DNA of 64,000 nucleotides from Rhodocytophaga rosea (lineage in GTDB: Bacteria; Bacteroidota; Bacteroidia; Cytophagales; 172606-1): contig NZ_CP048222.1 in assembly GCF_010119975.1 (NCBI RefSeq), positions 8,346,501 through 8,410,500 of the forward strand. Reading direction: 5' to 3'. Position 1 is the stretch's first letter. The number at the start of each line of letters is the position of its first letter. A model generated the notes under the pieces. The model saw nothing but the letters and a program-made list of their open reading frames with translations, ran no database searches and was not told the origin of the DNA. This document shows positions 62,116 to 62,824 of this stretch, piece after piece. The position numbers were made by a program, and so were the translations under genes.

Positions 62116-62143
62116 GAGAACATCGTTCGATCTATTTATATAC

Positions 62144-62178
62144 AAAATCCCTGGCAGCAAGCCAGGGATTTTTGTTTT
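62144..62178 (+). terminator. Intrinsic terminator after groEL
   Basis: AAAATCCCTGGC (62144-62155) pairs perfectly with GCCAGGGATTTT (62161-62172), 12 bp, loop AGCAA, followed by TGTTTT. Confidence 0.88.
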
Positions 62179-62263
62179 ATAGCTTTTTCATTCCTATGAC
62201 TTAGATATATAGTAATTGGCTTTGTTTGAAATAGAACTTGAAAGAATTATGCTGTTAATTCCT

Positions 62264-62655
62264 CTTACGCCGTCCTTACTTTCTTTGTCATTGCTACAAA
62301 GAAAGTAATCAAAGCAAGATCTAGAAAAAACGAAGCTTCCACGCTCAGGACCTACGCATTGCCCGCTGTTTTTTCAGGCCATCACGCATGGAATTTTTGT
62401 TTTATTAAAACTTAAAAAGCTATAGGCATATTAAAGAAATTATAGACAAAGCAAGAGTGCGGCTGACGGTGCAGCAACAGTGTGGCCGGTTTTGGCCCGT
62501 GCGTAGGCCGGAGGATTGTGGACTCGGCCTATCCAGGCGTAAAAGTGGCTATGTTGCTGCTTCCACAACTACGTTGGCTTTCTTCATCTCTCGCCTCACT
62601 AGTCTTTTGTTAGTTTAATTTTGCTTGCCCAAAATAAAAGTAAAGACGGCGTAAG
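62264..62655. mobile_element. 392-bp element with about 50-bp terminal inverted repeats (MITE-like)
   Basis: The outer ends are perfect: CTTACGCCGTC (62264-62274) and its complement GACGGCGTAAG (62645-62655). The likeness goes on inward, with gaps and mismatches, for about 50 bp (62264-62314 against 62604-62655), and each end also folds into a hairpin of its own: left TTACTTTCTTTGT (62276-62288) with ACAAAGAAAGTAA (62296-62308), perfect 13 bp; right an imperfect one around loop CTTGCC (about 62624-62629). The interior has no open frame of note but a GC-rich block (62455-62550) in an otherwise AT-rich spacer. No transposase and no clear target duplication. Similar palindromic intergenic sequences are common in Cytophagales as I recall; none other is seen here. 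Confidence 0.65.
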
Positions 62656-62824
62656 TATTCTACAAATATCTCAGTTACCTAAATCAAAATCTAAATTCTT
62701 TTTACAAGTGACTAACTAAAGTTACCAGTCATCGCCTATACAATCAGTTCAGCACAAATATTTTCCCCAAACCAATTGTTTTTCAGAGATTTCTGCCATC
62801 AAACAGAGTCTTACGGAAAATAGG

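Follow-up and report, generated by a model that had tools for sequence, protein, structure and literature searches.

Paired non-coding modules with hairpin ends in Rhodocytophaga rosea: a probably mobile, structured element and an end rule shared across phyla

The element downstream of groEL

The window (the whole 64,000-nucleotide stretch analysed, positions 8,346,501 to 8,410,500 of contig NZ_CP048222.1 of Rhodocytophaga rosea, numbered here from its first letter) carries a 392-bp non-coding element at 62264-62655. It lies between groEL upstream and an ORF resembling a zinc-type dehydrogenase downstream, both on the + strand. A terminator-like hairpin belonging to groEL itself stands ahead of the element at 62144-62172, so that read-through into the element may be low. 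A left module (L), a spacer and a right module (R) make up the element, with the inner sides of the two modules joined in a tail-to-tail pair (Table 1).

The outer inverted repeat has 19-nt arms (62264-62282 and 62637-62655) that are 95% complementary, and the left hairpin pairs 62276-62288 with 62296-62308 at 13 of 13 positions. An earlier note, made from sequence alone, had described inverted ends with a perfect outer 11 bp, a perfect 13-bp left hairpin with a 7-nt loop and an imperfect right hairpin; all three descriptions held, the last by reading of the sequence. Its claims that no transposase is encoded (the interval 62124-62824 contains no ORF reaching 60 aa) and that the composition differs from the AT-rich flank also held, GC content being 43.9% in the element, 31.4% and 32.5% in the flanks (31-33%) and 40.4% in the window. 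The interior, described as GC-rich, is so only in part: the really GC-rich portion is the R core (62456-62565, 60% GC).

This copy is degenerate, and the pairing of hairpin loops with a nearby partner sequence, described below, is missing at both of its ends. The left loop has no 5-bp partner, as in other L ends of the CATTGCT loop type, where pairing reaches 3 bp at most; the right hairpin is decayed and its loop is inverted relative to other R copies, which accounts for the loss of loop pairing there. The pseudoknot proposed below is therefore a trait of the wider family and is not shown for 62264-62655.

Table 1. Parts of the element, in window coordinates.
Feature	Positions	Strand	Description
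Whole element	62264..62655	+	L module, spacer and R module, inner sides together
Left outer tag CTTACGCCGTCC	62264..62275	+	Common to copies of the same genome, different in relatives
L terminal hairpin	62276..62308	+	13-bp stem, 7-nt loop
L purine linker	62309..62319	+	One substitution relative to the usual CAAAGAAA; its complement is the would-be third strand
L domain stem	62324..62375	+	62324-62331 with 62368-62375
L domain inner pairs	62333-62336 with 62356-62359	+	Weakly kept; alignment columns converted to window coordinates
L inner tail	62376..62406	+	GGCCATCACGCATGG and a T-rich stretch; similarity between copies stops here
Spacer separating the modules	62407..62437	+	Mostly not common to copies (by eye)
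R domain main stem and GC-rich interior	62468..62561	+	62468-62493 with about 62541-62561
Optional segment, about 40 nt	62565..62606	+	Also present, inverted, in some L modules
R terminal hairpin, imperfect	62610..62643	+	Loop inverted relative to other R copies
Right outer tag GACGGCGTAAG	62645..62655	+	

Copies in the genome and in relatives

A BLAST search of the 8.98-Mb genome with the 392 bp returned 101 pieces at 40 distinct places. The end pattern GCCGTCN{0,1}TTACTTT adds 13 places and a strict end pattern one further, for a total of 54. Since the weakest of the 40 places has an E value of 1.2e-11 and the end pattern matched 47 times against 2 for its reversed control, the number of matches is above chance, and the presence of many copies is shown. 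The BLAST matches resolve into two modules, L (query 1-143) and R (query about 174-392). Pairs occupy 8 of the 54 places (L001, which is the window copy, L002, L003, L004, L027/L044, L029, L030 and L034), always with their inner sides together; at the remaining 46 a single module is seen, although some of these were not read from end to end. Judged by eye, most spacers bear no relation to one another, but L001 and L004 have similar ones.

Searched against 59 genomes, R. rosea included, the 392 bp match six at E 1e-4: R. rosea itself, G001 of the same genus, G002 and G004 of the same family, and G055 and G058 of the same order. The G058 match is probably due to chance and by eye resembles part of an AAA-ATPase gene. 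In G001, G002 and G004 the hairpins and stems persist and the outer 11-12 bp are swapped for other sequences; the outer CTTACGCCGTC, common within R. rosea, is replaced there, and the terminal inverted repeat is therefore a genome-specific tag.

The earlier note had read the element as a non-autonomous mobile element or mobile structured RNA, a reading that a single copy without relatives or conserved ends would have refuted. None of these refutations came about, given the 54 places, the copies in one genome of the genus (G001) and two of the family (G002 and G004), and the ends conserved within R. rosea. The reading is thus supported, with two corrections: the repeated unit is the half (an L or an R module) and not a fixed 392-bp MITE, and the outer inverted repeat is genome-specific, whereas it is the hairpin and the sequence internal to it that are conserved.

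Some copies depart from this layout. Extra short hairpin-forming segments of the GGCACACAAGCTGGCTCAAAGC.. type replace part of a terminal hairpin arm at L022, L031, L044, L060, L062, L224 and L225, and such replacements occur in a same-family genome as well. The optional 40-nt segment is also seen without a module, at about 2515-2556 of L070, inside a stretch resembling an IS3-type transposase remnant.

Covariation of the stems

Both modules contain stems with compensatory changes, for which the earlier note had proposed looking. The L alignment comprises 20 sequences from four genomes, with a hand-drawn structure and without the copies that carry the 40-nt segment; 92.0% of its cells are paired, against 43-57% in slid controls. 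Ten of its 25 pairs changed on both sides, a count that none of 500 shuffles reached. The same held for four of the five measures, and on the fifth, further pair types, 25 of 500 shuffles scored as high, so that this measure is weak. The innermost L helix is itself weak (72.5% paired). For R (15 sequences, structure from RNAalifold run on the same alignment), 97.1% of cells are paired against 42-57.5% in slid controls, and 7 of 43 pairs changed on both sides, as high in 1 of 500 shuffles; covariation was matched by 0 of 500, and further pair types were not significant (261 of 500 as high).

An end rule across phyla

A hairpin-pattern scan of a species-genome collection gave at least 117 stretches, and 97 of the 117 recovered contain an accepted hairpin with an A-rich inner linker. 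All loci pooled, 158 distinct ends were found in 51 assemblies from at least four phyla: 34 Bacteroidota, 9 Bacillota, 5 Pseudomonadota, 1 Latescibacterota (a MAG), 1 of unknown phylum and 1 uncertain (Acetofilamentum), the phylum labels having been assigned here on the basis of record titles.

Two rules describe these ends, and both are shown across lineages. The first is that the loop is complementary to the bases just inside the A/T-rich linker. Such pairing reaches 5 bp or more at 40 of 99 distinct ends (permuted mean 8.8, maximum 20) and for 23 of 58 distinct loops (permuted 4.2, maximum 11); with one end per assembly, the mean is 20.6 of 51 against 4.6, maximum 12. The second is that the linker mirrors the purine arm of the hairpin. 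An arm TTTTCTT comes with the linker AAAAGAA in 28 assemblies, TTTCTTT with AAAGAAA in 23 and TTTTATT with AAAACAA in 4; along the pyrimidine run, 4 of 99 ends depart from this by inspection. An A-rich linker was a condition of acceptance, but the position of the odd base was left free. Throughout the R alignment the linker base tracks the hairpin pair except in L002, a copy with the 40-nt segment (14 of 15 rows agree). The family as a whole has the features of the proposed superfamily (hairpin, mirrored linker and loop-partner pairing), the last of which is missing from the window copy.

What could such a linker do? Read outward, it runs parallel to the purine arm and places T on A-T, C on G-C and G on T-A. 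Triples of this sort are those of the pyrimidine triple-helix motif with C+.G-C, and the G.T-A triple reportedly comes from Griffin and Dervan. Hairpin, loop partner and mirrored linker together fit a pseudoknot with a pyrimidine-motif triple helix, an inference from sequence alone.

It might be objected that the cross-phylum ends are unrelated look-alike hairpins and the superfamily an artefact of the search pattern. Interiors cannot be aligned by eye across phyla, tags differ from genome to genome, many matches come from MAGs, most of the hairpin was prescribed by the scan pattern, and the scan was incomplete. Against this, the mirror rule and the loop pairing lie outside the scan pattern and far above permutation, and the same pattern gave 0 matches in a viral contig collection. 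We consider an artefact very improbable.

Of 395 genomes sampled from the phylum, 2 have the strict end form and none matches its reversed control; the superfamily is therefore patchy, and a looser definition would raise the number. Lysobacter enzymogenes also carries such an end, on the reverse strand at 6833 of L189, and its interior is GC-rich. Similar-looking sequence outside the right hairpin (CCGCGGCT..GAGCGG) was noticed in two phyla, at L126 3650-4370 (an Oscillospiraceae MAG) and L080 4530-5080 (Mucilaginibacter).

Orientation, and RNA or DNA as the working form

Among 39 ends scored as solo in R. rosea, 26 sit between co-directional genes with transcription running from their inner to their outer side, and 1 is opposite; a further 4 have convergent neighbours and 5 divergent ones, and the last 3 overlap an ORF call. 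The bias of 26 to 1 has p about 4e-7 with the one counted. That one is the left arm of the window pair, whose decayed partner the script missed; without the window pair the score is 26 of 26. Fixed orientation to transcription in this genome is thus shown, within the limits of the test: genes were called by a simple ORF script, the three ORF-overlapping ends were excluded, some decayed hairpins were missed, L015 was paired with its own linker, and the solo list also includes L027 and L029, which are arms of pairs. The five pairs between co-directional genes (L001, L002, L003, L004 and L030) have L first and R second along transcription. In other lineages no orientation bias was observed (15 to 16), L and R not being distinguishable there.

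Wobble pairs bear on the strand. Sense-type G.U outnumber A.C by 90 to 3 in R helices and by 10 to 2 in L helices, counted on a structure fitted to the sense strand, with a few rows of the L alignment misassigned; when the antisense strand is used for the fit, sense-type wobbles number 13 and 7 versus 9 and 2. Wobbles in the loop-partner helix are neutral on strand, hairpin mismatches in sense letters (1 G.T versus 3 A.C) are neutral or against RNA, and folding energy, computed for 32 L, 19 R and 60 of 96 other-lineage ends, favours neither strand once composition is accounted for.

The main rival is a DNA-level element in which a transposase, HUH/Y1-like or other, recognises the ends as folded single-stranded DNA, as in REPs or palindrome-ended IS200/IS605 derivatives; orientation would then reflect strand exposure or selection, with no working RNA. 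In its favour are the inverted palindromes with a common tag at both ends and the strand-neutral folding energy, and the G-on-T-A triple is best known from DNA. Against it stand the 26 to 1 tracking of transcription, the excess of G.U over A.C in conserved helices and the lack of a Y1/RAYT partner: six genomes hold 29 Y1_Tnp loci, two of them overlapping, and not one has a TTACTTT..AAAGTAA hairpin within about 1.5 kb. This rival remains possible. The evidence tilts, without proof, towards RNA over DNA as the working form.

Mobility

Modules are missing at orthologous places of relatives, and this absence is shown. The module at 9472-9613 of L043 sits between a LytS-like kinase and its response regulator, a gap that measures 392 nt in R. 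rosea and about 30 nt in G001, where the module is absent. No element lies within 700 nt downstream of groEL in five relatives, in which the next gene differs; a sixth was left out for want of a groEL match. In G312 an element of about 540 bp stands between two convergent genes, and by eye none is present between the same two genes in all 12 relatives fetched from 61 genomes searched, the gap being 62-274 nt in 11 of the 12 and about 725 nt of other sequence in G497. Both the empty sites and target duplications had been put forward in the earlier note as checks. No target duplication was found by eye at pairs, and the junctions at orthologous sites are too diverged to show one. Mobility is inferred from copy number and from presence and absence, with no target duplication or enzyme found.

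Candidate vehicles and partners were also sought. Plasmids and phages hold no homologue of the 392 bp at E 0.01. An autonomous copy was rejected, since two stretches separating modules of one strand, 2 kb and 9 kb long, hold ordinary genes, and so was a reverse transcriptase partner, for which the genome has two matches with no link shown. One of the two is a retron-like reverse transcriptase ORF beside a SWIM-type gene at G000:C1:5761074-5761712 (L243), about 2.5 kb from a solo R module.

Could the modules instead be a fixed cis-acting RNA or DNA signal (an attenuator, an insulator or a structure at 3' ends) that ordinary duplication and recombination have multiplied, without being mobile? 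Their intergenic position, fixed orientation and covarying stems would suit this. However, the neighbouring genes are mutually unrelated (that they form one family was rejected, with only three weak similarities and one shared gene), which argues that the copies did not spread with genes, and modules are missing at orthologous places despite the genes being kept. This explanation seems to us very unlikely.

In two Mucilaginibacter species (L074 near 1727, L080 near 4973) an element stands just after what by eye seems the same serA-type gene, possibly through vertical inheritance of one insertion.

Proposed reading

The reading we prefer, which may as easily prove wrong as right, is that the element is mobile and structured, that it is probably transcribed, and that an enzyme yet to be identified moves it in trans. 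The element would be a pair of non-coding mobile modules, each with a stem domain followed by a terminal hairpin at the outer end and closed by a short genome-specific tag. Hairpin, loop and linker would form an H-type pseudoknot, with the linker, read outward, as third strand on the purine arm (T/U on A, C on G, G on T). The functional form would be a transcript read from inner to outer side, with the triplex in its 3' part; copies may be retained only if transcribed in that sense, and a trans-acting enzyme may recognise the folded end and spread the modules.

A functional transcript, retention by transcription sense and a trans-acting spreading enzyme are inferred only; there is no demonstration of the enzyme, of a benefit to the host, or of whether RNA or single-stranded DNA is the moving intermediate. 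Weighing against the preferred reading are the lack of loop pairing in the window copy and in CATTGCT-type L ends, the strand-neutral folding energy and loop-partner wobbles, the hairpin mismatches, the terminator-like hairpin of groEL, the lack of an orientation bias in other lineages, and the absence of a known transcript, target duplication or enzyme.

A bolder reading, which we consider unlikely, is that these are multi-phylum RNA-based mobile elements in which a telomerase-like triple-helix pseudoknot is the handle for a trans-acting enzyme copying transcribed modules back into the genome. If true, such an RNA-copying handle would explain the fixed transcription orientation, the solo modules and the exchangeable tags.

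Implications

Catalogues of intergenic palindromes have mostly treated each genome separately. The combination of hairpin, mirrored linker and loop pairing is one structural rule that ties together elements of Bacteroidota, Bacillota, Pseudomonadota and a Latescibacterota MAG. Such a rule offers a way to find and sort these elements, and it proposes a specific tertiary fold that can be tested. Should the fold serve as the handle of a mobilising enzyme, looking for that enzyme would be a well-defined task; should it be an RNA 3' structure instead, the element is a mobile regulatory part beside many unrelated genes.

Comparison with known systems

The earlier note gave no named family for the element, and this holds within Rfam and the literature searched, where no description or name was found. 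Rfam gives no gathering-score match in the window, and across nine loci the only matches above gathering are a riboswitch and a tRNA of L122, off these ends. A group II intron or other Rfam RNA was rejected, with no match to a curated family on the element. A few sub-threshold microRNA-type matches overlap hairpins of L103.

Telomerase-type triple-helix pseudoknots offer a structural analogy only, with no homology claimed. The telomerase-type pseudoknot is of the H type, with a U-rich linker forming U.A-U and C.G-C triples.

MITEs and bcr1-type repeats are likewise short, non-coding, intergenic and structured, without an ORF. Terminal inverted repeats together with no ORF, as in MITEs, are seen in the paired form only, most places having one module. 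Unlike in MITEs, the halves occur alone and the ends carry a mirrored linker; a target duplication was sought by eye at pairs and an autonomous parent in two spans, neither being found.

The betaproteobacterial repeat element (BRE) is an intergenic repeat of Bordetella and Polaromonas with traits of a mobile element, adjoining small RNAs (Hot et al., 2011, PMC3110155). That likeness is shared, but BRE differs in its size of 75-91 bp and its often tandem habit, with 69% GC in Bordetella (PMC3110155); the Polaromonas ends of the present family may or may not belong to it.

CGTC-tagged REPs (Di Nocera et al., 2013, PMC3733652) are also intergenic palindromes that form inverted dimers without a known dedicated transposase, and a GCCGTC tag stands beside the hairpin in R. 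rosea. Their stems of 8-9 bp and loops of 4-5 nt are smaller than those of the element, whose stems measure 13-14 bp and loops 6-8 nt (13 bp and 7 nt in the window). GCCGTC is the tag in R. rosea, other tags taking its place in relatives and other phyla, and to the tagged hairpin of the REPs the element adds a linker, a stem domain and a loop partner.
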